Assembly: GCF_963677155.1 (NCBI RefSeq)
Contig: NZ_OY781884.1
Coordinates: forward strand, 2,496,134 to 2,560,133
Direction of reading: 5' to 3'
Length of the DNA: 64,000 nt
From: an uncultured Draconibacterium sp.
GTDB lineage: Bacteria; Bacteroidota; Bacteroidia; Bacteroidales; Prolixibacteraceae
The translations under genes were made by a program, and so were the position numbers. How positions within the stretch are numbered: position 1 is the first letter of the stretch; each line of letters opens with the position of its first letter. Positions 6,503 through 64,000 of the stretch are shown one piece after another. A model generated the notes under the pieces. The model saw only the letters and a program-made list of their open reading frames with translations. It made no database searches and was not told the DNA's origin.

Positions 6503-7855
6503 ATGATAAAGAAGCGAATAGTTCTCATTATAGTTTTATATTTAATAATTGGAAATACGGTTCGGGCTCAGGTAAAATGGAGCCTGAACCAATGTATTTC
6601 TTATGCTATTGAAAACAACATCAATTTAAAAGAATACGAGATTCTTGAAAAACTATCGCTGGAAGATGCGCAACAGGCCAAACGTAATATGTTGCCCGGT
6701 ATAGATGCTTCAACCAGTGCAGGTTTTAATTTTGGTCGTGCGGAAGATCCGGGTAAAGGTACTTATATTAATACCAAGTTTTTTTCCAGCAGCTTCGGTT
6801 TGAATTCGTCCATCGTTGTTTTCGATGGATTTCGTATGCAGAACCAGATAAAGTACCAGAAATTCAGAAAACAAGCCTCGGAATACAATCGGCTAAACGC
6901 AACCGATGATCTGGCGTTTAACGTGACGGTGGCATTTTTTGATGTGGTTTATTATAAAGGAATGCTCGAAATTGCCAACGACCAGGTTGAAGCCTCAAAG
7001 CTAAGTTTGAAAACAACAGAAAAGAAAGTGGAAGTTGGTTTAGAAGCCAAAACCGACTTATTGGACATGCGTGCCAACCTGGAGAGTGAAGAACTCAACA
7101 AAATTCAGATTGAAAACACGCTGGAAACAGCCACTTTAAAACTCAAGCAATTGATGAACCATGTTTCCGCTGAGGAAATAGAACTGGTAAATGACTCGTC
7201 GATGGTATTAAACCAACAAGTGGCTCAGCCACAACAGCTTTTTGAACAGTATACCGCTTGGTCGCCGTATTACCGATCGATTGAAGCCAATGTGAAGGCC
7301 ACAGAAAAGAGCCTTGCTTTAAGTCGTTCGGCACTGTATCCCTCAATTTATGTTAATGGCTCAATAAATACTCGTTTCTCTGAAACAATTATCGATAGTT
7401 TAGAAAATACGGTGTCTTTTGGTGATCAGTGGAAAGGCAACAAAGGCAAATACCTGGGAGCTTCTTTAAGTATCCCGCTTTTTAGCCAGTGGAGCAACCG
7501 TTCAGCGGTGAAAAAGGCAAAACTGGAACTGGAACGTGCCCAAAATAATCTTGAGGATGAACGACAAAAAATGTTTTTCGAGATGGTGAATAACCTTACC
7601 GAACTAAAAGCATTGTACAAAGAACACAGTCAGTATGTAAAGCGCACTGAGGTTGACGAGCTGGCTTTTCAGGCGGCCGAAAAGAAATTCGATCAGGGAT
7701 TGATTGACATTAACGATTACTACATTGCAAAAAACCGGTTGGCAGAAGCCCAAAGTCAGGTTTTACGCTCGCGTACGCAGTGGGAGATAAAAATGAAAAT
7801 TCTACAGTTTTACCGTGGACAGCGCTTTTGGGAAGTGGAAGAAAGTGCTCAGTAA
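6503..7855 (+). CDS. TolC-family outer-membrane efflux channel
   Basis: A 450-residue protein with a Sec signal peptide (MIKKRIVLIIVLYLIIG, probable cleavage after A22). Its two long helical repeats are typical of OEP/TolC barrels, each containing a LDLLDMRANLESEEL- or INDYYIAKNRLAEAQ-type coiled helix (around residues 185-200 and 405-420). The helices are interrupted by beta-rich barrel segments (about 70-115 and 265-310). Length is normal for the family. It should trimerise in the outer membrane and be the exit duct for the adaptor and ATPase/permease encoded downstream. It is the first gene after the sigma-54 element, and the adaptor gene follows after 51 bases without a terminator, so the three components probably share a transcript. 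Confidence 0.94.
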   Translation: MIKKRIVLIIVLYLIIGNTVRAQVKWSLNQCISYAIENNINLKEYEILEKLSLEDAQQAKRNMLPGIDASTSAGFNFGRAEDPGKGTYINTKFFSSSFGLNSSIVVFDGFRMQNQIKYQKFRKQASEYNRLNATDDLAFNVTVAFFDVVYYKGMLEIANDQVEASKLSLKTTEKKVEVGLEAKTDLLDMRANLESEELNKIQIENTLETATLKLKQLMNHVSAEEIELVNDSSMVLNQQVAQPQQLFEQYTAWSPYYRSIEANVKATEKSLALSRSALYPSIYVNGSINTRFSETIIDSLENTVSFGDQWKGNKGKYLGASLSIPLFSQWSNRSAVKKAKLELERAQNNLEDERQKMFFEMVNNLTELKALYKEHSQYVKRTEVDELAFQAAEKKFDQGLIDINDYYIAKNRLAEAQSQVLRSRTQWEIKMKILQFYRGQRFWEVEESAQ

Positions 7856-7906
7856 TCAGTTGCAGAAAGCAGAAAAATTAGTTGAAAAAAGTAAAAGACC
7901 ATAGAT

Positions 7907-9163
7907 ATGGGAATGGATAAAAAAATTGAAAAGAAGAAAGGCTTAAAAGCCAAACACATTATTTGGATTGTTGGCGGATTAGCATTTGCCTTTCTGTTGT
8001 ATAAAGTGGTGATGGGAAGCAGTGGTTCAGTGTTTCGTGCCGAGAAAGATAAACTGACTATAAGCTCAGTTACCGACGGCGAGTTTAACGACTACATTAC
8101 CGTAATTGGCCAGGTGGAGCCTATTACAACCATTTTCCTTGATGTGGAAGAAGGCGGAAAAGTGGAAGAGATTTTGATTGAAGAAGGGGAGATGGTAAAA
8201 AAAGGCGATGTTATTCTCCGTTTGAAAAATAGCGATTTGAATACCACAATAATGAACAGTGAATCGCAATTGGCTTATCAGGCGAACGAGTTGCGAAATA
8301 CCCAGATTAGCATCGAACGACAGCGAATCGAGAATCAGCGTTCAAAAATGCAGGTTGATCTTAAGGTTGTTCAGGCAGAGCGGAAATACAAACAATATGA
8401 TGCTTTGTATAAAGAAGATTTAATTGCCAAAGAAGAATACTTAAAGACAAAGGAAGACTATGAACTCTCGCTAAAAGAGAAAGCATTAACGTATCAAAAA
8501 TTCACACAAGACTCAATTTTTCGTGCGAACCAAATGAAGAGCATGAATGAGAGTTTGGAGAATATGAGACAAAGTTTGAAAATGGCTCGTCGAAGACTGG
8601 ATAACCTGAATGTTAAAGCGCCGGAGGATGGCCAACTGGGATTATTAAATGCTGAAATTGGCGAGTCTATTTCTCGTGGGCAACGATTGGGAATGTTGCA
8701 CATTTTAACTGACTTTAAGATCAATGCCCTTATCGATGAACATTATATTGATCGGGTTCGCCGTGGGTTAAGTTCTTCTTTCGATAGGGCAGGTGTTGAA
8801 TACAACTTAACCGTTAAAAAGGTTTATCCTGAAGTGCGCGAAGGTCAGTTCGAAATTGACATGATCTTTGAAGGAGAAAAACCGGATAATATCCGTACTG
8901 GCCAAACATACCACACAAAATTGCAGCTGGGACAACCCGAAAAAGCGGTGCTGATTCCAAAAGGTGGTTTCTTTCAAAGCACCGGCGGCCAGTGGGTTTA
9001 TGTGCTGAATGCCAACGAAACAGAAGCCGAAAAACGGAGCATTCGTATCGGGAAACAAAATCCACAGTATTACGAAGTGCTGGAAGGTTTAACTCCGGGC
9101 GAGAAAGTGATAACCTCGAGTTATGATTTGTTTGGAGATAACGATCGGATTGTGTTTAAGTAG
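7907..9163 (+). CDS. HlyD/MacA-type periplasmic adaptor (membrane fusion protein)
   Basis: A single N-terminal membrane anchor (about residues 18-37) precedes a biotinyl-lipoyl half motif (VEPITTIFLDVEEGGKVEEI, about 67-86). A long alpha-helical hairpin of alternating charged residues follows (about 115-230), then the returning lipoyl half (LNVKAPEDGQLG), a beta-barrel domain and a membrane-proximal domain ending VITSSYDLFGDNDRIVF. This is the order in MacA-like adaptors of ABC-driven tripartite exporters. The hairpin would contact the TolC-like channel and the C-terminal domains the periplasmic face of the permeases. An alternative start two codons later (MDKKIEKK) cannot be excluded. One adaptor for 22 permeases means its permease-contacting surface must be compatible with many partners (inference). 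Confidence 0.93.
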   Translation: MGMDKKIEKKKGLKAKHIIWIVGGLAFAFLLYKVVMGSSGSVFRAEKDKLTISSVTDGEFNDYITVIGQVEPITTIFLDVEEGGKVEEILIEEGEMVKKGDVILRLKNSDLNTTIMNSESQLAYQANELRNTQISIERQRIENQRSKMQVDLKVVQAERKYKQYDALYKEDLIAKEEYLKTKEDYELSLKEKALTYQKFTQDSIFRANQMKSMNESLENMRQSLKMARRRLDNLNVKAPEDGQLGLLNAEIGESISRGQRLGMLHILTDFKINALIDEHYIDRVRRGLSSSFDRAGVEYNLTVKKVYPEVREGQFEIDMIFEGEKPDNIRTGQTYHTKLQLGQPEKAVLIPKGGFFQSTGGQWVYVLNANETEAEKRSIRIGKQNPQYYEVLEGLTPGEKVITSSYDLFGDNDRIVFK

Positions 9164-9186
9164 AAAGGAAAAAGGCAAAAGTTAGT

Positions 9187-9265
9187 TGTCATTTCGAAGG
9201 AGGTACGACTGAGAAATCTCTTCCATTTATTAACAGATTTCTCCTCCTGCGTCGTCGAAATGACA
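9187..9265. repeat. Dispersed palindromic (REP-like) element, copy 2
   Basis: It has the same TGTCATTTCGA boundary as copy 1 and the same GAGAAATCT / AGATTTCTC inner arms. It lies in the gap between the adaptor and ATPase genes, inside the presumed operon, where an RNA hairpin could affect mRNA stability. Confidence 0.85.
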
Positions 9266-9297
9266 AAAATAGAATTATACAACAAAACAAAAATATC

Positions 9298-9996
9298 ATG
9301 ATAAAGACAGAAAATCTAACAAAAGTATTTCGCACCGAAGAGGTGGAAACCAGTGCATTAAATGAGGTAAACTTACACGTGAAAAAAGGAGAATTCGTAG
9401 CCATTATGGGGCCATCGGGTTGTGGAAAATCAACTTTAATGAATATCATTGGCTTATTGGATAATCCCAGCGGCGGTAAATATTATTTTGATGGCTCGGA
9501 GGTTGGGCAGTTAAAAGAACGTAACCGCACCATGTTACGCAAAGGAAACATTGGCTTCGTGTTTCAGAGTTTTAACCTGATCGACGAATTAAACGTGTAC
9601 GAAAATGTGGAGTTGCCACTAATCTACTTAAAACTAAAAGCCCGCGAGCGCAAGGAAATGGTAGAGAAAGTGCTGGAACGGATGAAAATTGCTCACCGTG
9701 CCAAACACTTTCCGCAGCAACTTTCTGGTGGTCAGCAGCAGCGTGTGGCCATTGCCCGTGCAGTAGTTGCTAATCCGAAGTTAATTCTTGCCGATGAGCC
9801 CACCGGTAACCTCGATTCGAAAAACGGACTGGAAGTAATGAATCTGCTTACCGAACTCAACCGCGAAGGAACTACCATTGTAATGGTAACTCACTCGTTG
9901 CACGATTCTGAATTTGCACATCGTGTTGTAAACCTGTTCGATGGTATGATTATTACCGAAGAGGTGAAGAAGGAAATGGGAGAGATTCTGCTTTAA
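9298..9996 (+). CDS. MacB/LolD-type ABC transporter ATPase
   Basis: A 232-residue stand-alone nucleotide-binding domain with all motifs intact: Walker [10 protein letters not shown] (38-46), Q-loop Q90, signature LSGGQQQR (142-149), Walker [13 protein letters not shown] (162-173) and switch H199. The A-loop position is occupied by F11 (TKVFRTEE). The order and the LLDNPSGG segment are typical of the MacB/LolD/FtsE branch, whose partners are FtsX-fold permeases. It is the only ATPase gene in the window, while 22 FtsX-fold permease genes follow, so it is probably shared by all or many of them. It is soluble and should dock as a dimer on the coupling helices of each permease at the inner membrane. 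The longer gap before the first permease holds repeats but no strong terminator. Confidence 0.96.
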
Positions 9997-10111
9997 CAGG
10001 CTGAATATTTCGCTTTTCGAGAAGCGTTCTAATGTTATTGCCCCTTTGAAATGAAAATAGCAGAAAAGTCAGGTTGAAGATTTTAGTAAAATTGAATTTG
10101 ATCAGTACTTG

Positions 10112-10154
10112 CTCCCCTTATGAAGGGAACTCCCAACTGGGGGAGAGGAAAGGA
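10112..10154. repeat. GC-rich dispersed repeat fragment
   Basis: CTCCCC ... GAAGGGAACTCCC ... GGGGGAG is an imperfect GC-rich palindrome standing out from an AT-rich gap. It resembles the AGGGGA-type elements found later in the array at 51431-51540 and 56333-56358. Confidence 0.5.
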
Positions 10155-10164
10155 AAATGAGATC

Positions 10165-10235
10165 TGTCATTCTGACTGGAGTTGAAGAATGTATGACTGT
10201 ATATACAAGATGTTTCGACTACGCTCAACATGACC
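10165..10235. repeat. Second type of REP-like palindrome (TGTCATTCTGA ... CAACATGAC)
   Basis: TGTCATTCTGACTGGAG at the left end and GACTACGCTCAACATGAC at the right end form the boundaries of another dispersed palindromic family common in Bacteroidota. With the preceding GC-rich repeat and a small CGCTT/AAGCG hairpin at 10011-10026, it fills the 300-base gap between the ATPase and the first permease. No promoter is evident there. Confidence 0.6.
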
Positions 10236-10296
10236 AAAAGTACAGGTTATTTACTTTTCTTGAACACCCCTGATTAACGATAAAATGATACCCGCC

Positions 10297-12645
10297 ATGA
10301 AAAACTTACGATTTATATTTAGAATGTTTAGGCGAAATCCTATGTTGGTTTTTGTCAACCTTCCCGGATTAGCCATCGGATTAAGTGCTGTTTTGCTCCT
10401 GTCGGTTTATTTGAAACACGAGCTAAGTTACGACCAGCATTTTCAAACAAAAAATAATGTTTTACGACTTTACAGTGCAGTAAAAGAGGAAGGTAATATC
10501 ACTAATTACGGTATTTGTTTGCGCGATGCTTACACCGAAATTCCATTACAGGTTCCGGAAATAAGATCAGCTACTCAGATTTACAACGGATGGGACATAA
10601 CTGCAGAATACGAAAAGCAAAAATTCCCCAATTTGCAGCTTTTGTTTGCCGACAAGGATTTCTTTGATGTTTTCGGACTGGAGCTCATTCAGGGAAATAG
10701 CAACGATGCCTTGCAGGGTGAGAACAATGCGGTAATTACCCGGTCAACTGCATTAAAAGTATTCAATACCGTTGACTGTGTTGGCAAAGTTTTGAATGTT
10801 TCGGAGGTCCCGGCTACGGTAACGGGTGTAGTAAACGATTTGCCCAACAACACACACTTTAATTTCGATTTATTGGTGTCGATGCAGAGCGTCCATCCTG
10901 AGAACTGGGGAGGACTGGAACTATACACCTATTTTAGGATTGACGAAAATGCCGATTTAGTCGCGGTTGGCAAGAAAATAGCTGCAGCCAACAATGAACT
11001 AATGAAACCTTGGGGCGAGCAATTTAACCTCACCTCTGAATCTGGAACAGAGAGATTAGCCGATTTGCACCTTCACTCAGTTGTCGATCTCGATCTATCG
11101 CCCAAAGCCAATCTAACACACATTTTTATTATTGCCGGCATTGCTTTTCTGGTGATGCTAATTGCTATGGTAAACTACATTAATCTGTATGTTTTGCATG
11201 GCGAAAAACGGATTGCTGAAATCGGTTCACGAAAATCGTTGGGAGCAACGCAAGGAACATTATCGCGTTTATTTTTTACTGAAACAACCGTGATTGGCCT
11301 TCTTGCTTTTGTTTTGGCAATAGGATTAACGGCACTTGTTCAACCCTCGTTTGCCAAACTAATGCAAAGCCAGATCGAGTTATCGGACATGTTTTCCTTT
11401 TCAGGAATTTTGTTAGTACTGGCTATTCTCGCGGTGTTAATTTTAGTGTCGGGGGCGTATCCCAGTTACTATTTATCGAAGATTAATCTTGTAAATGCAC
11501 TTAAAGGGAAGTCCACGAAAGTAAAGCGCAAAAGTACCATGTCGCGCATTGCTGTTATTTCACAGTTTTCCATATCGGTTTTTCTTATCAGTGCGCTGGT
11601 AATTGTTTTTGCCCAGATAAATTATCTAAAAGAAGTGCCACTGGGTTTTAATCCCGAGAATGTAACTGGTATCACCAACCTGAATAGCGAGGTGCGAAAA
11701 AGTGCTTCGTCGATTGTTGATGAATTGTCGCAACTGGCCTTTGTTGAAGATGCAGCTACTTCCGGTCATGGCATGGGACAAGGATCGAGCGGACAGGGAA
11801 TAAAAAAATATGGAGCGCCCGGTAATCTTAAAGGAATTGATGAATACCGTGTGCAGCCCGGATTTGCCAAAACCATGCAATTGGAACTGGTCGACGGTCG
11901 TTACTTTAATCAATCGGAAGCAGATAAAAAAGCGGTAATTCTTAACCAGGCAGCAGCAAAAATGCTGGGCCCTGATGTAAAAGTAGGTAGCCTGGTTGAT
12001 ATGTTTGATGAACCGTTAACAGTAATCGCTATTGCAAAAGATTTTTATTATATCGATCACCCGGGAGAAACAATTGGACCACTTGTTCTTACCAACTACC
12101 GCAACAACGTAAACAACCTTTATGTGCGTACAAAAGCAGGAACTACTTCTGCTCAACTAGCTCAGATTGATGAGGTGATTAAAAGTTATTCGCCGGAGTT
12201 AATTATTAGTAAGTTTCAGTTAACTGATGTATATGCCAACAAATTCACCAACGAAGAGCGAATGATAAAACTGGTAACTACTGGTGCCGGACTGGCCATC
12301 ATCATCAGCTTTATTGGGTTAATGGCTCTTTCTGTTCTGAATGTAAACCGACGAAGAAAGGAAATAGGCATACGAAAAGTAATTGGAAGTACAGAAACAC
12401 AGGTTGTGCACGAGCTGCTGAAAGAGACTTTTATTTTGGTTTTAATTGCTATTGCAATAGCTTTTGTTGGCAGCTACTTTACCATGCAGCAGTGGCTGCA
12501 ACATTTTGTGAACCGCGTTTCCATCACTCCTGTGTATTTTCTGATTAGTGCTGCTTTTGCATTGTTTATAGCGTTTATGGCTGTAGGCTGGCAAAGTTGG
12601 CGGGCGGCAACGCGAAATCCGGTTGAGGCACTCAGATATGAGTAG
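10297..12645 (+). CDS. FtsX/MacB-type double permease, array member 1
   Basis: About 782 residues, with the plan shared by the array: TM1 (about 20-40), ectodomain 1, TM2-4, TM5 (about 420-440), ectodomain 2 and TM6-8, that is, two fused MacB-like halves. The coupling loops are RIAEIGSRKSLGA in half 1 and KEIGIRKVIGS (from residue 688) in half 2. Ectodomain 2 has LVDGRYF and IAKDFYYIDH motifs. With member 10 it forms a subfamily whose final module lacks the NKWLENFAYKT sequence of the others; only the terminal WQSWRAATRNPVEALRYE is shared. The second in-frame ATG was chosen because it aligns with the MKNLKF start of member 10; the first (10285) adds four residues. It is the first permease after the ATPase gene. 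Confidence 0.93.
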   Translation: MKNLRFIFRMFRRNPMLVFVNLPGLAIGLSAVLLLSVYLKHELSYDQHFQTKNNVLRLYSAVKEEGNITNYGICLRDAYTEIPLQVPEIRSATQIYNGWDITAEYEKQKFPNLQLLFADKDFFDVFGLELIQGNSNDALQGENNAVITRSTALKVFNTVDCVGKVLNVSEVPATVTGVVNDLPNNTHFNFDLLVSMQSVHPENWGGLELYTYFRIDENADLVAVGKKIAAANNELMKPWGEQFNLTSESGTERLADLHLHSVVDLDLSPKANLTHIFIIAGIAFLVMLIAMVNYINLYVLHGEKRIAEIGSRKSLGATQGTLSRLFFTETTVIGLLAFVLAIGLTALVQPSFAKLMQSQIELSDMFSFSGILLVLAILAVLILVSGAYPSYYLSKINLVNALKGKSTKVKRKSTMSRIAVISQFSISVFLISALVIVFAQINYLKEVPLGFNPENVTGITNLNSEVRKSASSIVDELSQLAFVEDAATSGHGMGQGSSGQGIKKYGAPGNLKGIDEYRVQPGFAKTMQLELVDGRYFNQSEADKKAVILNQAAAKMLGPDVKVGSLVDMFDEPLTVIAIAKDFYYIDHPGETIGPLVLTNYRNNVNNLYVRTKAGTTSAQLAQIDEVIKSYSPELIISKFQLTDVYANKFTNEERMIKLVTTGAGLAIIISFIGLMALSVLNVNRRRKEIGIRKVIGSTETQVVHELLKETFILVLIAIAIAFVGSYFTMQQWLQHFVNRVSITPVYFLISAAFALFIAFMAVGWQSWRAATRNPVEALRYE

Positions 12646-12694: not shown

Positions 12695-15061
12695 ATGAGT
12701 TTTCTACACTTTAAAAATAGTATCCGGTTTCTTTTAAAAAAGAAAAGTTATCTCCTGATTAATATTCTGGGGCTAGGGGTAGGAATAGCTACGTTTTTAA
12801 TTCTTTTTATGTACGTGTATAACGATTTTACGTACAATTCTTTTAATAAGAATTTGGAAAATATTTATCGTGTGCGCGAAGGGCAGGGCGAGCAAACAAA
12901 AGGTTTATTGCTGGCAGAAATGCTTAAACAGATACCCGAAGTTGAAAATGGAACCCGAATTTTTGACTGGGATGGATACAGGCTTGCCTACAACGACATC
13001 GCTTCTCCCGAAAACATAATATACGTTGATACGGGTTTTTTCTCGGTATTTACTTTTCCATTTATTGAAAAGGGTTCAGGAGATCATATAAAAGAAAAGT
13101 ACAATGCAGTTGTTAGTAAAGATTTTGCCGAGCGTTTTTTCGGCGACGAACCTGCTGTAGGAAAACAGTTGCAGGTGCAATTCGGCGACATTTACCTTAC
13201 AGTGAACGGTGTTGTTGATATTCCCGATAACTCATCGGTAAAATTCGACATTGTTACATCTTACGAAACAGGTGAAACCATTTCTCCGTGGGTAAAACAG
13301 GTACACGACTGGTACAATACATTTTCGATGACTTATGTTTTGTTAAAAAGCGGAACAAACCCTGAGGATATTTACGGCAAAATACAGCAAATTGCCGAAA
13401 CGAATTTTTTAACAGGTGCAAACGAAAAACCTGAAATGAATTTGCTCGCTTTTAAAGAGTATCATTCCGAACAGGAATCAAATCAAACGCTCATTATCAT
13501 TCTTGGAGTTATCGCCCTTGGAATTTTGAGTATTGCTATGGTAAATTTTATCAACTTGACGATTACCAATTCACTTGGGCGAGCCAAAGAGATTGGTGTA
13601 AAAAAAGTAGTTGGTGCGGGTAAAGGTTTTTTGATTCGCCAAATCATGACCGAATCTTTAATGATTAGTTTAATTGCTTTGTTGCTTGGTGTGCTCCTGT
13701 CTTTGTTTTTTCTGCCTCAATTCAATCAACTTTATAATACTCGTCTTCACTTTAGTTTCACGCAAAATAAACTGTTAATGCCGATTCTTATATCGGTCTG
13801 GCTCTTAGTGGGTTTGCTGTCAGGAGCTGTTCCGGCAATGTATTTGTCGCGGATGGGATCGATAGACAGTTTGCGCGGCAAGCTTATAAAAAACGGCAAG
13901 GTAAGAATGTCGAAGTATTCGCTTGTTGTGGTTCAGTTTGTAATTGCGATTGTCCTGATTTCCGGAACTTTTTTAATGCAAAAGCAGATTCGCTTTATGA
14001 TTAATCAGGATCCGAAATTTGATAAGGAGAATGTGGTTGTGGCTGAATTAAATAGTTGGGAGTTTAAGGATTTGGAGGCCGCATCGTTAAAATACAAGCG
14101 GATTGCCGAAGAGCTAAAAGCAAGCCCATTTGTGGAATCGGTTTGTTTTTCGCAATGTACTCCGGGAAATTACAGCCAGAACTACAATAATTTTTATACC
14201 GAAGGAGAAAGCGATGTGGAAAGTATTCACCTTCGGAAAGCGTATGTCGGGAAAAATTACTTCAAAACTTTTGGCATTAAACTAATTGATGGGGAAGGGT
14301 TTTCAGACGAGACACGAAATTATGAGAGAAACATGGTTTTGAATAAAAAAGCAATGGAAAAGTTGGGTTACGAAAGTGTAACAGATCAAATTCTTCATGA
14401 AAGTGTAAGATCGGGTACGGCCAACAAAATAATAGGGGAAGTGGAGGATTTCGCCTATCAGGGGGCACAGTATGAAACACAGGCTGTTGCACACATTTTC
14501 GCTGATCAGGAAAATTATACCAACTGGAGTTATCTGTCGGTAAAATCAAAACCGGGAACTAATTTGCAGGTTTTGGATTTATTAAAAGACAGTTGGAGAA
14601 CTACTCAGCCGGAATCTGAACTATCCTTCTTTTTTGCAGATGACAAACTGAACGAACAATACCGGGAATATGAAAAAATTAAACAAATTATTACCTGGTT
14701 CTCACTGGTAGCCATTGTTCTTTCCTGCATTGGTTTGTTTGCACTTTCATCCTATGCCATCTCTCGCAGAATTAAGGAAATAGGAGTACGGAAAGTAAAT
14801 GGTGCAAAAGTAGGAGAGGTAATAACTTTGCTAAACCGTGATTTCTTGCGATGGGTAGTCATTTCGTTTGTGATTGCTGTACCGATCTCGTGGTATGCAC
14901 TAAACCGCTGGCTCGAAGGTTTTGCCCTAAAAACTACTTTAAGCTGGTGGGTTTTTGCTTTGGCCGGTTTACTGGCGCTAGGCATTGCCTTGTTAACCGT
15001 TAGTTGGCAAAGCTGGCGGGCGGCTACGCGAAATCCGGTGGAAGCGTTGAGGTATGAGTAA
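12695..15061 (+). CDS. FtsX/MacB-type double permease, array member 2
   Basis: 788 residues with the eight-segment, two-half plan. The half-1 coupling loop RAKEIGVKKVVGAGKG (about 296-311) is close to the canonical form, so both halves may contact the ATPase. The half-2 loop is KEIGVRKVNGA from residue 694. Ectodomain 2 carries LIDGEGF, but its usual KDFNFxSLH motif is changed to VEDFAYQGAQYE, unlike nearly all neighbours, and so may bind a different ligand. The C-terminal module is a divergent version (NRWLEGFALKTTLSWW), while the last 26 residues are standard. It starts 49 bases after member 1, without a terminator. Confidence 0.94.
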   Translation: MSFLHFKNSIRFLLKKKSYLLINILGLGVGIATFLILFMYVYNDFTYNSFNKNLENIYRVREGQGEQTKGLLLAEMLKQIPEVENGTRIFDWDGYRLAYNDIASPENIIYVDTGFFSVFTFPFIEKGSGDHIKEKYNAVVSKDFAERFFGDEPAVGKQLQVQFGDIYLTVNGVVDIPDNSSVKFDIVTSYETGETISPWVKQVHDWYNTFSMTYVLLKSGTNPEDIYGKIQQIAETNFLTGANEKPEMNLLAFKEYHSEQESNQTLIIILGVIALGILSIAMVNFINLTITNSLGRAKEIGVKKVVGAGKGFLIRQIMTESLMISLIALLLGVLLSLFFLPQFNQLYNTRLHFSFTQNKLLMPILISVWLLVGLLSGAVPAMYLSRMGSIDSLRGKLIKNGKVRMSKYSLVVVQFVIAIVLISGTFLMQKQIRFMINQDPKFDKENVVVAELNSWEFKDLEAASLKYKRIAEELKASPFVESVCFSQCTPGNYSQNYNNFYTEGESDVESIHLRKAYVGKNYFKTFGIKLIDGEGFSDETRNYERNMVLNKKAMEKLGYESVTDQILHESVRSGTANKIIGEVEDFAYQGAQYETQAVAHIFADQENYTNWSYLSVKSKPGTNLQVLDLLKDSWRTTQPESELSFFFADDKLNEQYREYEKIKQIITWFSLVAIVLSCIGLFALSSYAISRRIKEIGVRKVNGAKVGEVITLLNRDFLRWVVISFVIAVPISWYALNRWLEGFALKTTLSWWVFALAGLLALGIALLTVSWQSWRAATRNPVEALRYE

Positions 15062-17483: not shown

Positions 17484-17508
17484 AAACACTAAAACTAAAC
17501 ATAATAGT

Positions 17509-39502: not shown

Positions 39503-39562
39503 AAAAACAGCCAGGGTATCTCTACAAATGAAACTTTGACTATCACAAAATATGAAATAGCT

Positions 39563-51421: not shown

Positions 51422-51430
51422 AAGCTCTCT

Positions 51431-53903: not shown

Positions 53904-53919
53904 CTACTAAATGCAACCC

Positions 53920-56334: not shown

Positions 56335-56358
56335 GTCCCCTCCAGGGGATTTAGGGGG
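56333..56358. repeat. AGGGGATTTAGGGGG-type dispersed repeat between members 19 and 20
   Basis: AGTCCCCTCCAGGGGATTT followed by AGGGGG begins at the stop codon of member 19. The reading frame of member 20 runs upstream through it, but the encoded residues (NKSPPGDLGGKK) are not permease-like. Confidence 0.65.
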
Positions 56359-56398
56359 AAAAAAACTAAATAATTACAACCATAAAACTATTTCAACC

Positions 56399-58768
56399 AT
56401 GATAAAAAACTACTTAACCACAGCGCTTCGCTTTTTAAAACGAAATAAACTGTTTGCCGGAATCAATATTATGGGGCTTTCGCTTGCCCTGGCAGCTTCG
56501 TTTATTATTCTGTTATATGTAATAAATGAGTTGAGTTACAACACCTGCTTTAAAAACCGAAAGCAGATTTACCGTGTTCTGAACTATAATGCTGATGTAA
56601 AAGTAATGGATGAAGGTGCGCCCTATATTCTTACAAAGCATTTACAAGACGAATTTCCGCAGGTAAAATATGTGGCACCCACCAGATTGATGTCGGGATT
56701 TAGTGTAAAGGTGAATGAAGATTATATTCCTGTTGATCGGGTTGTTGGAACCGATTCAGACATATTTAATGTCTTCGATATTGATGTTCGTGGTCAGCAG
56801 GCAAATGTTCTCGACGAGCCAAATTCTATTGTCCTTTCAAAAGAACTGGCACAAAAACTTTTTCCGGACAAAGATCCTATTGGATTGGAATTGGTTGCTC
56901 AAATTGACGAGAAAGACGAAGTTTTAGAAGTGAAGGGAGTTTTTGAAGATATTCCAGTGAACTCAACTTTTCAGGCCGAATGTTTTATTAATTTCAAGTG
57001 GCCGATGGAACAGATTAATTCGAGGATTAAAGAGAGAGAGGCTGAAACAGACTGGCGTTCCATGTACTGGCAAACCTGGTTATTGCTGGATAAAAACAAT
57101 ATTGGGGATTCGTTTGGTGAGCATTTTCGATCTTTGGAGAAAGAGGTTTTTAGCGATGACGAGAAATACGAATTCTCCCTTCAAAATTTATCTGATGTCT
57201 ATTTCGGATCGCAGGATATTAACAGCGGATTGCCACAAGGTAACCTGAAAAATATTCGGATTTTTTCGGCCATTGCCTTGCTCGTTATTTTAATTGCGGC
57301 TCTTAATTATATCATTCTATCAACAGCTGTTTCAACCGGCAGGTCAAAAGAAATTGGGATTAGAAAAACCAATGGTGCCGGGGCAAAATCCATTCGCCGA
57401 CAATTACTGAATGAATCAATGATTCTGTCTGTTCTGGTTTTACCTCTTGCACTGTTTTTGGCATGGCTTGGAAAACCTTATGCCGAAGAACTGTTCCAAA
57501 CCAAACTATTGATCCTCAGGTCAAATGTTGCCATTTATGTTTCTATTTACGTGGCGCTAACCTTGCTTATTGGTCTGGTGTCAGGCCTGTATACCGCGTC
57601 GTATTTGTCAAAACTGAATGTAATCAGCATTTTAAACAACTCGGTACGGGCGGGAAAACGAAAGACACGTGTTCGTTCAGCCCTGATTGTAGTTCAGCTG
57701 GTAATTTTCTGTATTTTCGTTTCGAGTACACTCATCATTAATTCTCAATACAAGTATGCGCTGGAGAAAGATCCGGGTTATTACAACAAAGATGTTTTGT
57801 TTGTTGATATGGGGCCATATTCTCAAAGCTCAAAAACGTTTATAAACAGCATTAAGGCTTATTCTGATGTGTTGGCAGCCGGAGGAGCAATAGATGCTTT
57901 ACCTATGACCGATTTTTTCCCTTATCCCATGGAATTTCCGGGTGATAAATCGAAAAAAATACCTATCGAGCTTCTGGCTGTTGATTACAATTTTATTGAG
58001 GCGATGGGAATCCAAATAATAGATGGAAGAGGTTTCTCTCAAGAACTTGGAGATGATGAAAACTCTTATGTCCTAAACGAAAATGCAGTTAAAGCATTGG
58101 GATTAACCGATCCGGTTGGAAAAAAAATTGATGTAGTTAACGGAACCGTAATTGGCGTGGCCAGGAACTTTAATTTACACTCGTTACATAGCGAAATTCC
58201 GCCTTTATTAATGATTGCATCAAATGACTTTGCTCAGCAGGTTGCTATTCATTACAAAGACGGATCACTCGAAAATGTTCTGCCATTAGTTAAATCTGAA
58301 TGGCAAGAGATTATTCCCGATGAGCCCATGAATTACAAAACCATGGATGAATTTTTAAAAGAGGTTTATACCGAAGAAAAAAACCTGAGTGTGATTGTTT
58401 CGGTGTCGGCATTTTTTGCGCTGCTGATTGCTTCATTTGGGCTGTTTGGCCTTACACTTTTTATCATGAAATCGCAAACCAAAGAAATAGGAATTCGAAA
58501 GGTCTGTGGTAGTTCCGGGCAAAGTATTGTGTTGTCTTTCCTGAGCAAAAATTTTATAATGGTAGTTATCGCAACTCTACTTTCAGTTCCTCCCACAATC
58601 TTTGTAATGAATAAGTGGCTAAGCAATTTTGCATTTAAAACCGACATTTCATGGTGGGTGTTCGTAATCACATTTGTGTTTGCAGCAATAGTGGCTTTAT
58701 CAACCGTTTTGTTTCATTCTTATCGGGCTTCACAAATTAATCCGGTCCAAGCTTTACGATATGAATAA
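56399..58768 (+). CDS. FtsX/MacB-type double permease, array member 20 (outlier tail)
   Basis: 789 residues from the ATG giving MIKNYLTTALRFLKRNK. A longer frame overlapping member 19 by 23 bases passes through a dispersed repeat and was rejected. Coupling loops are RSKEIGIRKTNGAGAKS (half 1, near canonical) and KEIGIRKVCGSS (from 695). Ectodomain 2 has AIDALPMTDFFPYPMEF, IIDGRGF and ARNFNLHSLHSEIPP. Its C-terminal module is the only complete one that never joins the array consensus: NKWLSNFAFKTDISWW, then LFHSYRASQINPVQALRYE. The 95-residue length is kept. It may be an original copy that escaped homogenisation, or the edge of the converted block. A DUF4097-like gene follows after 70 bases. 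Confidence 0.94.
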   Translation: MIKNYLTTALRFLKRNKLFAGINIMGLSLALAASFIILLYVINELSYNTCFKNRKQIYRVLNYNADVKVMDEGAPYILTKHLQDEFPQVKYVAPTRLMSGFSVKVNEDYIPVDRVVGTDSDIFNVFDIDVRGQQANVLDEPNSIVLSKELAQKLFPDKDPIGLELVAQIDEKDEVLEVKGVFEDIPVNSTFQAECFINFKWPMEQINSRIKEREAETDWRSMYWQTWLLLDKNNIGDSFGEHFRSLEKEVFSDDEKYEFSLQNLSDVYFGSQDINSGLPQGNLKNIRIFSAIALLVILIAALNYIILSTAVSTGRSKEIGIRKTNGAGAKSIRRQLLNESMILSVLVLPLALFLAWLGKPYAEELFQTKLLILRSNVAIYVSIYVALTLLIGLVSGLYTASYLSKLNVISILNNSVRAGKRKTRVRSALIVVQLVIFCIFVSSTLIINSQYKYALEKDPGYYNKDVLFVDMGPYSQSSKTFINSIKAYSDVLAAGGAIDALPMTDFFPYPMEFPGDKSKKIPIELLAVDYNFIEAMGIQIIDGRGFSQELGDDENSYVLNENAVKALGLTDPVGKKIDVVNGTVIGVARNFNLHSLHSEIPPLLMIASNDFAQQVAIHYKDGSLENVLPLVKSEWQEIIPDEPMNYKTMDEFLKEVYTEEKNLSVIVSVSAFFALLIASFGLFGLTLFIMKSQTKEIGIRKVCGSSGQSIVLSFLSKNFIMVVIATLLSVPPTIFVMNKWLSNFAFKTDISWWVFVITFVFAAIVALSTVLFHSYRASQINPVQALRYE

Positions 58769-58838: not shown

Positions 58839-59840
58839 ATGAAAACACAAAAGAACCTCAAACTTCTTACAATGATGGTCATGCTGACGGCATTACTTTC
58901 GTTAAACGGATGGGCGAAAGGCGGTCAGCCAACCATTACAAAAACCTTCGATTTAAACCAGCCGGGGCAACTCAATGCTTCATCTTCGGGAGGTGGAGTA
59001 ATTGTGGAAACACACAATCAGCCCCAGGTTATTATTCAGGCTTTTGTACGAAAAGACGGACATCTTTTATCGCCGTCCGACAGAGCACTAAAAGAGGTTC
59101 TCGATGATTTCGATATCGATTTTTCAAAAAGCGGATCAACCATTACAGCAGTGGTGAAACGCAAAGGACGAATGAATTTCTGGAGGAATAATGTAGGTAT
59201 TTCGCTAACTATTATCGTGCCCGAAGAAATGTCGTGCGATGTATCGTCAAGCGGCGGCGGATTGAAAATATCAGGAGTAAAGGGAACGCACGATTTTTCG
59301 AGTAGTGGTGGTGGCGTGCGACTGGAGAATACCAGCGGCAGCACAAAAGCCAGCTCGTCGGGTGGCGGTGTTAAAGCCACCAACCATGATGGCGATATCC
59401 ATTTAAGTTCCAGCGGTGGCGGTGTTTCGGTTGAAGGTGCACGCGGAAATGTTTATGCTCGAAGTTCAGGTGGAGGCGTAAATTTAGAAGATATTCATGG
59501 CTCGGCAGATGCTTCAAGCAGCGGTGGCGGAGTTTATGTAAGCGGAGAAGCCAGTTCGGTTACAGCCAAATCTAGCGGCGGTTCGGTAAAAGTTAATATT
59601 CGCAATTTAACTGACGAGCTATACCTGGAATCAAGTGGCGGTGGTGTTTCTGCTGTTATTCATGGTGGCGAAAAAATGGGACTCAATCTTGATTTGCGTT
59701 CAGGCAGAGTGAATATTGGTCTATATAATTTTACAGGTACTTCCAAGAAAGACCGCGTAAAAGGGAAGATGAATGGAGGCGGTATTCCGGTTTATGCACA
59801 TGCATCAGGAGGCAATGTTAATATCAGTTACGAGGATTAG
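58839..59840 (+). CDS. DUF4097-like beta-helical repeat protein, exported
   Basis: 333 residues with a signal peptide (basic N-terminus, LLTMMVMLTALLSLNGWA, cleavage after about residue 26). The rest is built on nine copies of an SSGGGV-type motif. One lies near the start of the mature protein; the others, from about residue 136 on, recur every 17-20 residues and alternate with short beta strands ending in small or charged residues. This is the pattern of DUF4097 / putative adhesin beta-helix proteins, whose function is unknown. It should reside in the periplasm or on the surface. It lies inside the permease array in the same direction and is followed by the only strong terminator in the array. 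It may be a passenger or a periplasmic partner of the exporter; the sequence does not decide. Confidence 0.85.
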   Translation: MKTQKNLKLLTMMVMLTALLSLNGWAKGGQPTITKTFDLNQPGQLNASSSGGGVIVETHNQPQVIIQAFVRKDGHLLSPSDRALKEVLDDFDIDFSKSGSTITAVVKRKGRMNFWRNNVGISLTIIVPEEMSCDVSSSGGGLKISGVKGTHDFSSSGGGVRLENTSGSTKASSSGGGVKATNHDGDIHLSSSGGGVSVEGARGNVYARSSGGGVNLEDIHGSADASSSGGGVYVSGEASSVTAKSSGGSVKVNIRNLTDELYLESSGGGVSAVIHGGEKMGLNLDLRSGRVNIGLYNFTGTSKKDRVKGKMNGGGIPVYAHASGGNVNISYED

Positions 59841-59876
59841 TTGCCGTTTAAAATCAGAAAAAATATTCGAGGTAAT

Positions 59877-59916
59877 AATGAGGATTTCACTTTAAGTGAA
59901 GTCCTCATTGTTTTTT
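59877..59916 (+). terminator. Strong Rho-independent terminator within the array
   Basis: AATGAGGATTTCACT pairs with AGTGAAGTCCTCATT (15 bp with one G-U pair) around a TTA loop, followed by G and six T. It closes the transcription unit ending with the DUF4097-like gene. No comparable hairpin was seen in the other permease junctions. Confidence 0.9.
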
Positions 59917-59917
59917 G

Positions 59918-60188
59918 TTATTCAGGAGATCTTATCTGAAAGAATTCGCATAAAACGCATAAGACTGTGATCTATAACAGCGCAAATCTGCAAAATCTGT
60001 GTAATCAGCGTTCTGATCTTTGTGACAAGTATTTATACAGTTCTTGTCAAAAAAATTTACACTTAAGAAAAAGGGGTGTCTGCTAAATGTTTGATATTGA
60101 GAGTGTCGTGGAAAGGGCACAAGAGTTGATCGTTCCATGTTGGTTTAATAGTAAATAACGCTCGTGGCTCGCAGCTAACAGCTTAAGA
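59918..60188. other. Intergenic region before member 21
   Basis: About 270 bases without a gene. It contains sequence resembling dispersed Bacteroidota repeats (AATCTGCAAAATCTGTGTAA near 59985) and a CTCGTGGCTCGCAGCTAACA stretch just before the start codon. GGGCACAAGAGTTGA at 60115 resembles a -24/-12 element but lacks the -12 C. No convincing promoter is identified, although the terminator upstream means one is expected here. Confidence 0.5.
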
Positions 60189-62564
60189 ATGTACAACCTA
60201 AAAATTACATTACGGCGCCTCTTTAAAGACAAGGCCTTTTCGCTGATCAATATCTTTGGATTGGTGATTGGTATTTTGTCTTTCCTGGTTTTGTTCATTC
60301 ATGTTTCAAACGAGAAAAGTTTTGACAAACATATTGCGGATCACGAAAATATTTATCGTGTGATTTCTGCTATTGGCGGAAATGATAACGCAGACTGGGC
60401 TCGAAGTCTGGGAATTGTGCACACTGCATCGGCTGAAATTCCGGAAGTAAAACTCGCTACACAGTTTTCGCATTGCAATGCGGGAACTATAAAGTTAGGC
60501 GAAAATACGTTGGTTCAAGACAACATCATGTCGGTGGATGAGGCATTCTTTGAGATGTTTGATGTTCAAATTATTGCCGGCAATGTATCAGAAATTTCGA
60601 AACCCAATACCGTTTTTGTTACCGAAGATTTTGTACGAAAATATTACGGCAACCTAAATCCTGTTGGGCAAGCTATAAAAATTGAAACACTACAATATAC
60701 ACGGGATTTGGGCGATTACGAAATTCGGGGAGTGGTAAAAAATACCCATCCGAAGACCCATTTCAAATACGAACTGCTGATCTCTCAAAAAGGGGGATTG
60801 CAGGAACGCTTTGCTGCGTTACCCAACCGAAAAATACAGTGGACTTATAACTATTTCAAACTTCAGGATGGAACCGATCCGAAGATCGTTACAGACAAAG
60901 TGCAGGCTTTTTACGATGCCAGCAGCCTGAAAACCACATCCGGTCCACAGGAATATGAATTTTCTTTATTTTCGTTGGATGATATTCACTTAAAATCGGA
61001 TTACCGTTTCGAGTTGCTTGAAAGTTCAAGCAAGATAAATATTGGATTGTTTATCCTTATATCATTTGTCATTCTCGCGATCTCGTTGCTGAATTTCACC
61101 AACCTTTCCATTGTCAAATTAATAAAACGATCAAAAGAGCTGGGCCTCAAAAAATCAATAGGAGCCACGAAGCTCCAGTTGGTTAGGCAAGTTTTAATGG
61201 AAGTATTTTTGCTTTGTGTGTTGGCAATTGGCATTTCATTACTGGCAATTGAAAGTTTAAAACCGATAATTAATCGTTTATTCGAGATTAAATTTGATAT
61301 TTATTTTTCAGAGCTGGTTGTATATCTCACCATCATTGGGGTTTTACTCACCTGCCTTTTGATCACTGCCTTTTTTGTGGCGGTATTTTTGCTTGCCCGC
61401 AGTTCGTCCATCGATATTTTGGCGGGGCGTAACAACTTTTCGGGCAGTTATGTGCTGAAATCCTTGCTGGTTGTGCAGGTGACGATTGTGATTATTCTTG
61501 TTTCAGGAACCTTGTTAGTAAATAAGCAGATCAGTTTTGTTTTAAATAAACCATTGGGTTTCGATAAGGAAAATGTGGTGGTTTTAACGGTAAAAGATTT
61601 TTCGAAGGATCCGGGTGTTTTTGCACGCGAACTGGAAAAACAAAGCCAGGTGGTTTCAGAAGGAATGACGGAACACCATTTCGGTTATCCTGCACAGGGA
61701 ATGGGGTTGGAAGGATTCGGAATTGACGGAACAGCCGAGCTTGTTTTTGCCAACTACGACTACCTCAAAACCATGAATATTAAACTCATACATAATTGGA
61801 TACAACCGGATGCCGACACGGTGCGGGGAATGGTGATAAACAATCATTTGTATCACCGATTGATGGAGAAACACGGAAGTATGGATAATCTTATAGCCTA
61901 CTCAAATGCACAACCCTTAGGACCGGGAGAAACACGCATTAATTTTGTCGGCGTTGCTGAAGATTTTAATTACAGTTCGGCACACCAAAGTATTGGCGAT
62001 TTTGCGTTTTGGCTCGATGAAGGGGGACACAGGGCACGTTTTACACATGTGCGGATTAACAACCTGCATGCTGGCATGGCAGCCATAAAAAACACCTGGA
62101 ATGAATATTACCCCAACCAGGAACCCGACTATTTTTTTATTGATGAAAAAATTGCTCAACAATATAAGGCAGAAACCATTTTAAGTCGTATCCTTTTTGT
62201 TTTTTCAGCCATCGGGGTACTTATTAGTATTATCGGGATCAGTGCGTTGGCCTTGTTTATTTCGCAGCAACGAACCAAAGAAATTGGTATCCGAAAAGTA
62301 AATGGTGCAACGGTTTCAGAAATATTGGGATTGTTGAATCAGAGTTTTGTAAAATGGGTGTTAATTGCATTTGTTATTGCTACTCCGCTTTCTTTTTATG
62401 CCATGAGTAAGTGGCTTGAAAATTTTGCTTACAAAACCAATGTGAGCTGGTGGATTTTTACACTGGCTGGAATAATGGCTTTGGGTGTTGCATTATTTAC
62501 CGTTAGCTGGCACAGCTGGCGTGCTGCAACACGTAACCCGGTTGAGGCACTCAGATATGAATAA
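60189..62564 (+). CDS. FtsX/MacB-type double permease, array member 21 (paralogue of member 17)
   Basis: 791 residues, the sister of member 17: same VSNEKSFDK after TM1, RSKELGLKKSIGATKLQ in the half-1 coupling loop, NFSGSYVLKSLLV, ADTVRGMVINNHLYHRL and AEDFNYSSAHQSIGDFAFW. Half-2 coupling is KEIGIRKVNGA from 697. Its C-terminal module differs from the consensus more than that of member 17 (NQSFVKWVLIAF, TPLSFYAMSKW, TNVSWWIFTLAGIMALGVALFTVSWHSW). The duplication may predate homogenisation of the member 17 tail. It is the first gene after the terminator and so probably begins a new transcript. Confidence 0.94.
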   Translation: MYNLKITLRRLFKDKAFSLINIFGLVIGILSFLVLFIHVSNEKSFDKHIADHENIYRVISAIGGNDNADWARSLGIVHTASAEIPEVKLATQFSHCNAGTIKLGENTLVQDNIMSVDEAFFEMFDVQIIAGNVSEISKPNTVFVTEDFVRKYYGNLNPVGQAIKIETLQYTRDLGDYEIRGVVKNTHPKTHFKYELLISQKGGLQERFAALPNRKIQWTYNYFKLQDGTDPKIVTDKVQAFYDASSLKTTSGPQEYEFSLFSLDDIHLKSDYRFELLESSSKINIGLFILISFVILAISLLNFTNLSIVKLIKRSKELGLKKSIGATKLQLVRQVLMEVFLLCVLAIGISLLAIESLKPIINRLFEIKFDIYFSELVVYLTIIGVLLTCLLITAFFVAVFLLARSSSIDILAGRNNFSGSYVLKSLLVVQVTIVIILVSGTLLVNKQISFVLNKPLGFDKENVVVLTVKDFSKDPGVFARELEKQSQVVSEGMTEHHFGYPAQGMGLEGFGIDGTAELVFANYDYLKTMNIKLIHNWIQPDADTVRGMVINNHLYHRLMEKHGSMDNLIAYSNAQPLGPGETRINFVGVAEDFNYSSAHQSIGDFAFWLDEGGHRARFTHVRINNLHAGMAAIKNTWNEYYPNQEPDYFFIDEKIAQQYKAETILSRILFVFSAIGVLISIIGISALALFISQQRTKEIGIRKVNGATVSEILGLLNQSFVKWVLIAFVIATPLSFYAMSKWLENFAYKTNVSWWIFTLAGIMALGVALFTVSWHSWRAATRNPVEALRYE

Positions 62565-62581
62565 TAAAAGTTTAATAAAAT

Positions 62582-64000
62582 ATGTTTAGAAATTACCTGA
62601 AAGTAGCACTTCGTAGCTTGTTGAAAAACAGGCTTTTCACTTTTATAAATATTACCGGTTTGGTAATTGGTATGGTGGTGGCCTTGCTCATTTTTAACTA
62701 TGTAAGTTTCGAGCGCAGCTACGACTCGATGCATGAAAATGCAGATCGTATTTATCGTGTGGAAAGTAAATTCTACGAAGGCGAAACACTTACCGATGAT
62801 TGGGCAACGGCATCGTTTGGTTATGCCAGTGCGATGAAAGAAAACATTCCCGGCATTCAGGATTATGTGCGAATTGCTATTAACAACACCGAGCAGATGG
62901 TGAGTTACGAGGAAGAGAAATCGCGCGAGAATACCGTTGCTATTACCGAGCCTTCTTTCTTTTCCATTTTCTCGTTTAAACTGATTGATGGCGATGCGTC
63001 AACAGCCTTAAGCACTCCGAATAAAGTAGTTATTTCTCAACTGGCAGCACATAAGTTTTTCAAAAACGAAAATCCATTGGGTAAAATTTTAGAGTTCAGA
63101 ACACTGAATCAGACTTATGAATGCGAGGTAAGCGGTGTGCTTGAAGATATTCCGGCCAATAGCCATTTTAACTTCGATTATTTTATATCGTGGGATACAC
63201 AACCCGACTGGATTAAAAATTTCTGGTACCTGCACGAAACCTACTCGTATGTGCAGCTGGAACCCGGCATTTCGCCCGCAAGTATTGAAAACGCTTTTCC
63301 GGCTATGTCGGAAAGGTACAAAACTGCCGATGCGTTAAAAAATAAAACCTGGGCTATTGAATTACAACCGTTGACTGATATACACCTGACACCGCAAAAA
63401 CAATACGAACGCGAAGCCAAAGGAAATGCAAAGGCCGTAAAAGCCCTGGTTTTAATTGCGCTGGCTATTCTTCTCATCGCCTGGATCAACTATATTAATC
63501 TTACTACCTCCCGATCGCTGGAGCGTGCCCGGGAAGTGGGAGTGAGAAAGGTATCCGGGGCACAGAAAAAGCAACTGATCATTCAGTTTTTAATCGAATC
63601 AACTCTGGTAAATGTTGTTGCTCTGGCTATTTCAATTGGTTTGTTTCTGCTGTTCATCCCATCATTTAATTCGTTTATAGGTAAAAACATCGGCTTTTCA
63701 ATTTTATACATGCCGCGCTTTTGGGTGTTAATCACATTATTTCTTGTAACGGGCATAATACTTTCCGGACTGTATCCGTCGCTTGTGTTGTCGAATGTAA
63801 AACCCGCAATTATATTAAAAGGAAAATACCTGAACTCACAACGTGCTGGCGTGGTACGAAAAGGGTTGGTTGTTTTTCAGTTTGTGGCGTCGCTGGTTTT
63901 AATTTGCGGAACCCTGGTTGTTTATGCGCAGCTAAAATACATGCAGAATCAACCGCTGGGTATAAACATTGATAGAACATTAATCGTGAAATTTCCTGCA
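62582..64000 (+). CDS. FtsX/MacB-type double permease, array member 22 (3' end outside window)
   Basis: The ATG lies 17 bases after member 21 and the frame is open for 473 codons to the right edge, covering TM1, ectodomain 1, TM2-4 and TM5. Ectodomain 1 shows ITEPSFFSIFSF, NPLGKIL and LEDIPANSHFNFDYF. The half-1 coupling loop is RAREVGVRKVSGAQKKQ. The half-2 ectodomain and C-terminal module lie outside the window, so the array continues for at least another kilobase. N-terminal features (NYLKVALRSLLKNRLF, SYDSMHENADRIYRV) are closest to member 19. Confidence 0.93.
   Translation, partial: MFRNYLKVALRSLLKNRLFTFINITGLVIGMVVALLIFNYVSFERSYDSMHENADRIYRVESKFYEGETLTDDWATASFGYASAMKENIPGIQDYVRIAINNTEQMVSYEEEKSRENTVAITEPSFFSIFSFKLIDGDASTALSTPNKVVISQLAAHKFFKNENPLGKILEFRTLNQTYECEVSGVLEDIPANSHFNFDYFISWDTQPDWIKNFWYLHETYSYVQLEPGISPASIENAFPAMSERYKTADALKNKTWAIELQPLTDIHLTPQKQYEREAKGNAKAVKALVLIALAILLIAWINYINLTTSRSLERAREVGVRKVSGAQKKQLIIQFLIESTLVNVVALAISIGLFLLFIPSFNSFIGKNIGFSILYMPRFWVLITLFLVTGIILSGLYPSLVLSNVKPAIILKGKYLNSQRAGVVRKGLVVFQFVASLVLICGTLVVYAQLKYMQNQPLGINIDRTLIVKFPA

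Follow-up and report, generated by a model that had tools for sequence, protein, structure and literature searches.

The window analysed here is a 64,000-nt stretch (positions 2,496,134-2,560,133) of the genome of an uncultured Draconibacterium sp. (5.27 Mb in a single contig; the genome and its array are labelled G000), and it carries the core genes of a putative exporter followed by a long row of double permease genes (Table 1). A two-component pair is encoded divergently, and the genes for a TolC-type channel, a periplasmic adaptor and a free-standing ATPase (ATP1) follow one another on the plus strand. ATP1 contains GPSGCGKST and LSGGQ as read in the sequence, the Walker and signature motifs of a LolD/MacB-class ATPase. 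After it come 22 permease open reading frames (ORFs) of 770-818 aa on the same strand, the last one cut by the window end. The ORF starts of permeases 4, 13 and 20 are probably too far upstream, and the ATGs given in Table 1 are the likelier starts. Among ORFs of at least 150 aa from ATP1 to the window end, the only interruption is one DUF4097 gene, as the initial annotation had proposed. Short ORFs in the gaps within the window were inspected by eye, with no convincing peptide substrate among them.

Beyond the window, permease 22 is completed and a PDDEXK_3 gene, a second ATPase (ATP2) and a 23rd permease follow. A profile search of the 25 kb after permease 23 gave no more permeases nor ATPases of these types. 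The initial annotation had described one TolC, one adaptor and one ATPase gene followed by 22 same-strand permeases; these genes are where it placed them, but a second ATPase and a 23rd permease lie past the window. On extension of the locus, one of the checks that it had suggested, the complete count is 23 permeases per two ATPases.

Table 1. Features of the array and its surroundings. Positions are those of the window unless a locus label (L) is given; F numbers are permease families, i.e., clusters at 60% identity across 12 genus arrays, and "no partner" means none at 60%.
Feature	Position	Strand	Remarks
Sensor histidine kinase, divergent two-component pair	3501..4853	-	HATPase_c; divergent beside exporter in 12/12 genus arrays
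NtrC-type sigma-54-dependent response regulator	4850..6235	-	Response_reg, Sigma54_activat, HTH_8
Sigma-54 type -24/-12 site TGGCATTATAATGGCA	6461..6476	+	27 bp before TolC
TolC-type outer membrane channel	6503..7855	+	OEP 6.2e-58
Periplasmic adaptor (membrane fusion protein)	7907..9163	+	RND_mfp over cut-off, HlyD; DarC model below cut-off
First ATPase (ATP1), free-standing, LolD/MacB/DarD type	9298..9996	+	ABC_tran 4e-36; DarD model 284 of 375 bits
Permease 1, F03	10285..12645	+	First permease in 9/12 genus arrays; non-consensus tail
Permease 2, F22	12695..15061	+	77% to G011; <=34% in remaining ten arrays
Permease 3, F21	15111..17483	+	
Permease 4, F24	17461..19848	+	Start probably 17509
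Permease 5, no partner	19868..22240	+	
Permease 6, F15	22258..24603	+	
Permease 7, F14	24621..27008	+	95% to G002; <=66% in other arrays
Permease 8, no partner	27028..29412	+	
Permease 9, F23	29422..31815	+	
Permease 10, F25	31846..34200	+	80% to G011
Permease 11, no partner	34233..36563	+	
Permease 12, no partner	37031..39454	+	
Permease 13, F20	39536..41905	+	Start probably 39563
Permease 14, F04	41927..44260	+	
Permease 15, no partner	44360..46672	+	
Permease 16, no partner	46693..49017	+	
Permease 17, F01	49040..51421	+	69% to permease 21
Permease 18, no partner	51558..53903	+	
Permease 19, F05	53911..56334	+	Type case for structure prediction
Constant C-terminal tail of permease 19	56044..56331	+	Last 96 codons: coupling helix 2, TM7, TM8, C-terminal helix
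Permease 20, F13	56312..58768	+	Start probably 56399; non-consensus tail
DUF4097 (Toastrack) protein, SSGGGV repeats	58839..59840	+	Present in 11/12 genus arrays
Permease 21, F01	60189..62564	+	
Permease 22, F06	62582..64000 in window, runs to 64999	+	Non-consensus tail
Second ATPase (ATP2), 222 aa	65488-66156		Beyond window
Permease 23 (terminal)	66271-68688		Beyond window; array ends 4.7 kb past window
GDSL lipase beside DUF4097	L034:1243-2061; L052:13078-13893; L055:10587-11402	-	Pfam run on the L034 (G008) one

Both permeases run against Pfam and NCBIfam (2/22) contain two copies each of MacB_PCD (PF12704) and FtsX (PF02687), and a profile built from the array's own proteins matches the 23 members at 837-1028 bits, values that are high by construction. 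The AlphaFold2 model of permease 19 (mean predicted local distance difference test, pLDDT, 88.8; predicted template modelling score, pTM, 0.87) has eight long transmembrane (TM) helices, and its fold resembles YbbP, the best full-length match, as well as MacB, LolCDE and BceB. Both marks of a type VII ATP-binding cassette (ABC) system are therefore present, the FtsX-type TM fold with a MacB-type periplasmic domain and the corresponding ATPase.

The 23 permeases have a mean pairwise identity of 29.8% (range 23-69%). Identity among these paralogs is 0.23 in both ectodomains, 0.21-0.30 in TM1-6 and 0.39 in the first coupling helix; it is 0.79 in the second coupling helix, 0.53 in TM7, 0.72 in TM8 and 0.90 at the C-terminus, so that near-constancy is limited to the last ~96 residues. 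The divergence of the ectodomains pointed out in the initial annotation was borne out, whereas the membrane-proximal conservation that it had also claimed is seen in the tail from the second coupling helix on and not in TM1-6, which are about as variable as the ectodomains. Since the first-half counterparts, TM3, TM4 and the following linker, only reach 0.23, 0.21 and 0.17, the constancy is one-sided. A tail at least 70% like the consensus is found in 18 of the 23 permeases here and in 95/155 complete permeases in wider loci, and E714, R718 and G722 of the second coupling motif are kept in all 78 permeases aligned (78 of 194 collected). For MacB, a loop helix and the C-terminal helix are described in PMC5985334 as the major and minor coupling helices contacting the ATPase; the array permeases may dock on a shared ATPase via their constant tail. 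Ectodomain-specific diversification among orthologs was considered and rejected, since PCD1 (0.87) and PCD2 (0.89) are no lower than TM3, TM4 and TM7 (0.85-0.87).

By our count the genome encodes 25 double permeases, 23 in the array and two elsewhere, at L005 beside an ATPase of its own and at L004 lacking one; a 1097-aa frame at 3835543 with one weak MacB_PCD match stays unclassified outside this count. With the nearest family model, only three ATPases exceed 270 bits: the two of the array and a third that adjoins its own permease. The five that rank next reach 178-250 bits; half-size MacB permeases are the neighbours of three of them, the 1097-aa frame is the neighbour of the fourth, and the fifth (4901383) has no adjoining PF12704 match. 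A dedicated ATPase elsewhere for each permease was thus not found in this family-model scan of the genome. The ratio of 25 double permeases to three close ATPases and the coupling motif kept in 78/78 fit the earlier proposal of one ATPase driving interchangeable subunits, except that the array has two ATPases, not one; gene counts and motifs suggest that ATP1 is shared among the array permeases. The locus with its own ATPase (L005:3967-10883) has counterparts in L146, L150, L155, L158, L159 and L162; its ATPase is 86-88% like ATP1, and it also holds a consensus-tail permease with two long ABC proteins alongside.

Outside the arrays, permeases adjoining an ATP1-like ATPase have the tail in 9/9 cases (0.74-0.80), whereas among those without such an ATPase nearby it is present in 1/12 (0.72) and missing in 11/12 (0.42 or less). 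This count of 21 permeases omits L164, which encodes three complete permeases (0.90, 0.69, 0.75) and seems to belong to the G011 array. The interior proteins could instead be orphans that act without the array ATPases, as membrane sensors or ADOP-like proteins, and merely lie behind an ordinary exporter: the ADOP family is the nearest NCBIfam model for the two permeases run (264 and 233 bits), and the 12 loci just mentioned are double permeases in these genomes without a nearby ATP1-like ATPase. This is unlikely in view of the ATPase-facing motif kept in every aligned permease, the coincidence of tail and ATPase outside the arrays, and the two ATPases in 11 of the 12 arrays read in this genus (the contig of G011, with one ATPase in the available stretch, ends inside its 35-permease array). 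The reading that we prefer, with a probability of about 0.6, is a type VII ABC exporter (YbbAP/MacAB-like) whose ATPase-adaptor-channel core is common to exchangeable, tail-docked permeases.

The 12 arrays, that of the window included, are all labelled with the same genus; the nearest named relatives are Draconibacterium. The frame of the array is fixed: the divergent kinase and regulator, TolC, adaptor and ATPase are present in 12/12, DUF4097 in 11/12, the first permease is F03 in 9/12, and 10/12 end in ATP2 and the terminal permease F02. The interior is variable. Permease ORFs of more than 700 aa after TolC number 23, 21, 22, 19, 15, 7, 12, 11, 9, 8, 11 and 35 per array, the variation in copy number (7 to 35) that the initial annotation had suggested looking for. 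At 60% identity the 194 permeases, which include one upstream of TolC in G007, fall into 87 clusters, 49 of which are singletons. In the seven closest genomes, shared interior families make up a mean of 0.36 (0.12-0.80) of the smaller interior, and neighbour pairs are retained in 7/51 cases involving interior families vs 25/42 fixed ones. Permease remnants were found in 4/41 gaps longer than 250 bp, every one with a C-terminal piece, although the tail is also what such a search detects most readily. Three such gaps, in the G004, G007 and G011 arrays, hold body-less C-terminal pieces (starting at profile positions 761-776) and a further one in the same arrays holds an N-terminal and a C-terminal piece, remnants as deletion scars might leave. 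One permease gene is split in G008, and G007 (D. aestuarii; joined stretch 4557-7706) has an additional permease-ATPase pair between regulator and TolC.

Beyond the genus, a scan with the adaptor alignment gave 251 encoding stretches; the analysis retained the best 80, and many of their titles point to Prolixibacteraceae and other Bacteroidota. In these 80 adaptor loci, TolC lies directly before in 70 and an ATPase directly after in 69, and at least three permease ORFs (cut ones included) come before another recognised gene in 32 of the 51 loci with an ATPase and 10 kb downstream. Eight further named genomes chosen among them (one Maribellus) have 5-13 permease-profile matches (one gene counted as two halves), mostly in one cluster in seven of the eight; in Labilibaculum euxinus 6/13 are in one.

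The two ATPases might also divide the labour, ATP1 serving the first permease, ATP2 the terminal one and the interior permeases either or both, the array being two exporters grown together. The joint occurrence of ATP2 and F02 in 10/12 arrays is in line with this, as are short relatives with the order adaptor-ATPase-permease(s)-ATPase-permease (e.g., L069, L082, L089, L094, L095 and L096). Nevertheless, F02 shares the consensus tail (0.80) with most interior permeases, therefore tails do not sort by ATPase, and blastp of the 12 stretches gave no second adaptor or channel gene. Such a division is considered somewhat unlikely.

Exchange of permease genes between genomes was studied on 340 cross-genome pairs. 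The tail comparison used 51 interior consensus-tail pairs from 15 families with body identity at 4-fold sites above 0.55. In the last 24 codons this identity is 0.40 vs 0.70 in the body (family means), lower in 15/15 families (Wilcoxon p=6e-5). The controls gave 0.56 vs 0.68 for non-consensus tails (48 pairs, 6 families; 4/6 lower), 0.53 vs 0.62 for F01/F02 (30 pairs; 1/2 lower) and 0.60 vs 0.65 for core genes of the seven closest genomes (85 pairs; 3/5 lower), the latter being 0.57 vs 0.63 at 48 codons, with 5/5 lower. Where body identity is 0.68 or more (29 pairs), the likeliest change point of third-position identity lies within 111 codons of the stop in 18/21 consensus-tail pairs and in 0/8 others. 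In addition, some genes are far closer than the core of the same genome pair, such as F08 between G013 and G009 (0.81 vs 0.41), F14 between G000 and G002 (0.91 vs 0.64) and F01 between G000 and G011 (0.71 vs 0.37); overall this holds for 35/141 interior and 14/161 fixed-family comparisons. From this excess over the core and the breakpoints in the tail, species appear to exchange permease genes one at a time, and one of the two crossovers usually falls within the tail; the other was not located. Blastn blocks starting ~287 bp upstream of the preceding gene's stop codon were dropped as transfer boundaries, since any two tails are similar enough to extend the alignment.

The tail could be constant by selection alone, with functional constraint as its only cause and the breakpoints as artefacts. 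Synonymous sites of the tails are near random (0.37-0.49 within genomes vs 0.29-0.30 expected), as such constraint would have it, and the controls dip slightly as well. Protein constraint, however, should not make the tail of a shared gene less alike at synonymous sites, a drop of that degree is not seen in core genes or non-consensus tails, and some falls are sharp, e.g., from 0.92 to 0.50 in third-position identity at 36 codons before the stop in F14. Selection as the sole cause is thus held to be very unlikely. A silent reservoir, in which one promoter-near permease is expressed and the rest are gene conversion donors as in antigenic variation, would agree with genes in a row on one strand and shared 3' tails with breakpoints in them. 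The promoter-near F03, however, is a stable and not a variable permease (0.87-0.94 identical within the family), the interior copies are full-length ORFs (23/23 in G000, which also rules out decay of the array in the window) whose amino acid identity in cross-genome pairs far exceeds their synonymous identity, and strongly homogenised tails were found in no genome; we give this explanation very little credence, the least probable of those considered. Of the reservoir of variants suggested in the initial annotation, the strong interior turnover over 12 arrays is retained, although the variants are mostly whole genes and not silent fragments.

With regard to regulation, the motif TGGCAY-N7-GCW lies near the TolC start in 40/68 loci and near permease starts in 0/157, the regulator is upstream on the opposite strand in 61/66 loci with room for it, and RpoN is encoded in the genome. 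Because of the site before TolC, RpoN and the adjoining NtrC-type regulator, sigma-54 control of the exporter core is likely. A survey described sigma-54 enrichment before COG0577/FtsX-like permeases in several classes including Bacteroidia (PMC12316311). DUF4097 is one of the Toastrack families, tied to envelope stress systems and predicted to be intracellular in the account of PMC11237479. In contrast, the DUF4097 protein of the window begins with a hydrophobic segment resembling a signal peptide (by eye; model confidence is low in this part), followed by a confidently modelled beta core; with its many SSGGGV repeats it is 67-89% identical to nine relatives.

A GDSL lipase gene lies antisense beside DUF4097 in 3/12 arrays (G005, G008 and G010) and is absent from the window; it calls to mind the hydrolase TesA that partners YbbAP. 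Genes for alpha/beta hydrolases, a calcineurin-like phosphoesterase or an SMP-30 protein are found in other arrays. Small nucleases (PDDEXK_3, DUF559) and an IS200-like transposase within the arrays (L001:11017-11430, L059:3185-3604 and L043:7731-8192) could aid recombination or be passengers. A MerR-type helix-turn-helix fused to an N6/N4 DNA methylase is encoded at 1475-2560 of the window.

Several observations weigh against the preferred reading of a shared core with traded, tail-docked permeases. A permease can belong to the array without the consensus tail, as do five of the 23 here, F03 and F06 among them. Outside the arrays, the nine permeases with an ATPase appear to form a single orthologous group and the other 12 to form a few, which leaves few independent cases. 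The TM helices vary as well as the ectodomains, so a role of the variable part in specificity is presumed. Relative order of shared interior families is kept in 144/189 cases, which rules out free shuffling of the interior. The entry of nucleases, the IS200-like transposase and other cargo means that some insertion may use other routes. Individual change points are in several cases weak, with log-likelihood gains from 3.9 to 24 in consensus pairs, and the slight dip of non-consensus tails and core genes lies at the very end of the gene too. Co-transfer of the upstream neighbour's tail is not clear, at 0.41/0.40 in the last two 12-codon bins vs a baseline of 0.37/0.37 (38 pairs). Finally, pooled tails are no more alike within than between genomes at synonymous sites, the largest excess being 0.46 vs at most 0.41 in G003; for G000, identity at 4-fold sites of 0.37, inside the 0.37-0.40 between genomes, rules out recent within-genome gene conversion of tails. 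With the tails nearly saturated and without within-genome excess, constraint and not recent homogenisation holds the protein tail constant.

Taken as a mechanism, the two-component system with its sigma-54 activator would switch on TolC, adaptor and ATPase. Each permease would be a complete two-half transmembrane part in one chain, with eight TM helices and two periplasmic MacB-type domains, and therefore two copies of the shared ATPase and any one permease could form a working transporter. The C-terminal module (second coupling helix, TM7-8 and C-terminal helix) would dock on the ATPase, while the remainder, both periplasmic domains included, would set substrate and partner specificity. The interior would be a repertoire gained, lost and traded between species gene by gene, with crossovers often in the shared 3' tail. 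The direction of transport is presumably export, and the substrates are, at a guess, membrane-active or hydrophobic compounds such as competitors' antibiotics, encountered on the periplasmic side.

Genomes rich in double orphan permeases are already known, and so are tripartite MacAB pumps and YbbAP. E. coli YbbAP(-TesA), as described in PMC12646458 (PDB 9ge6/9ge7), is likewise a type VII ABC system with a free-standing ATPase and a pseudosymmetric one-chain double permease with two coupling helices. According to the same source, YbbP has an extra TM pair between the halves (TM5-6 linker; 10 TM helices, against eight long ones in the array model), and YbbAP has one permease and the TesA hydrolase partner, whereas the array has an adaptor, TolC and 23 permeases. 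MacAB-TolC shares the adaptor adjoining the transporter genes, the TolC-type channel, the MacB-type periplasmic domains and the FtsX fold; in MacB, as presented in PMC5985334, each subunit combines an ATPase domain with four TM helices, whereas the array has a separate ATPase gene and many copies of a doubled permease. ADOP proteins (TIGR03434) are also double FtsX/MacB_PCD permeases in many copies per genome, with 102 "acidobacterial orphan permeases" reported for one metagenome-assembled genome (PMC10564751) and 28 and 33 copies for two Dyadobacter (PMC11573002). The two array permeases run stay below the ADOP cut-off of 622 bits, which was exceeded in 0/31 genomes. ADOP are by definition without an ATPase gene nearby, whereas the array sits behind a full exporter core and is bracketed by two ATPases. 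The darobactin exporter DarBCD, which has a single permease, provides the nearest named models for the array ATPase and adaptor, although all cut-offs (NF038007/8/10) are missed (ATPase 284/375, adaptor 179/450, permeases 78 and 148/700). Group II ECF importers and systems with MsiK/MceG-type shared ATPases use one energising module for several specificity subunits, but they are importers and their partner genes are not known to lie in one variable array; the principle is the same, while the array would be an exporter. No description of a variable permease array with fixed ends and a link to an exporter core, or of a tail that is shared and recombines, was found in the open-licence literature searched.

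Tentatively, and at slightly less than even odds, the array can be viewed as a modular export platform with a fixed, stress-regulated core, whose shared 3' tail would be both the ATPase docking module and a homologous-recombination handle for trading specificity subunits. If so, one sequence element would guarantee that a newly gained permease fits the resident engine, and, if ATPase sharing is true, this platform would go beyond the known kinds and would be the export counterpart of shared-energiser importers. The gene row would be unusual in evolving like a cassette array, with no integrase among the genes identified in it, and would provide a ready system in which to trace specificity to a given part of a type VII permease. 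Dozens of double permeases are annotated as orphans of unknown function in many bacterial genomes; some may be alternative subunits of a common ATPase-adaptor-channel core, and these may be recognised via the constant C-terminal module.

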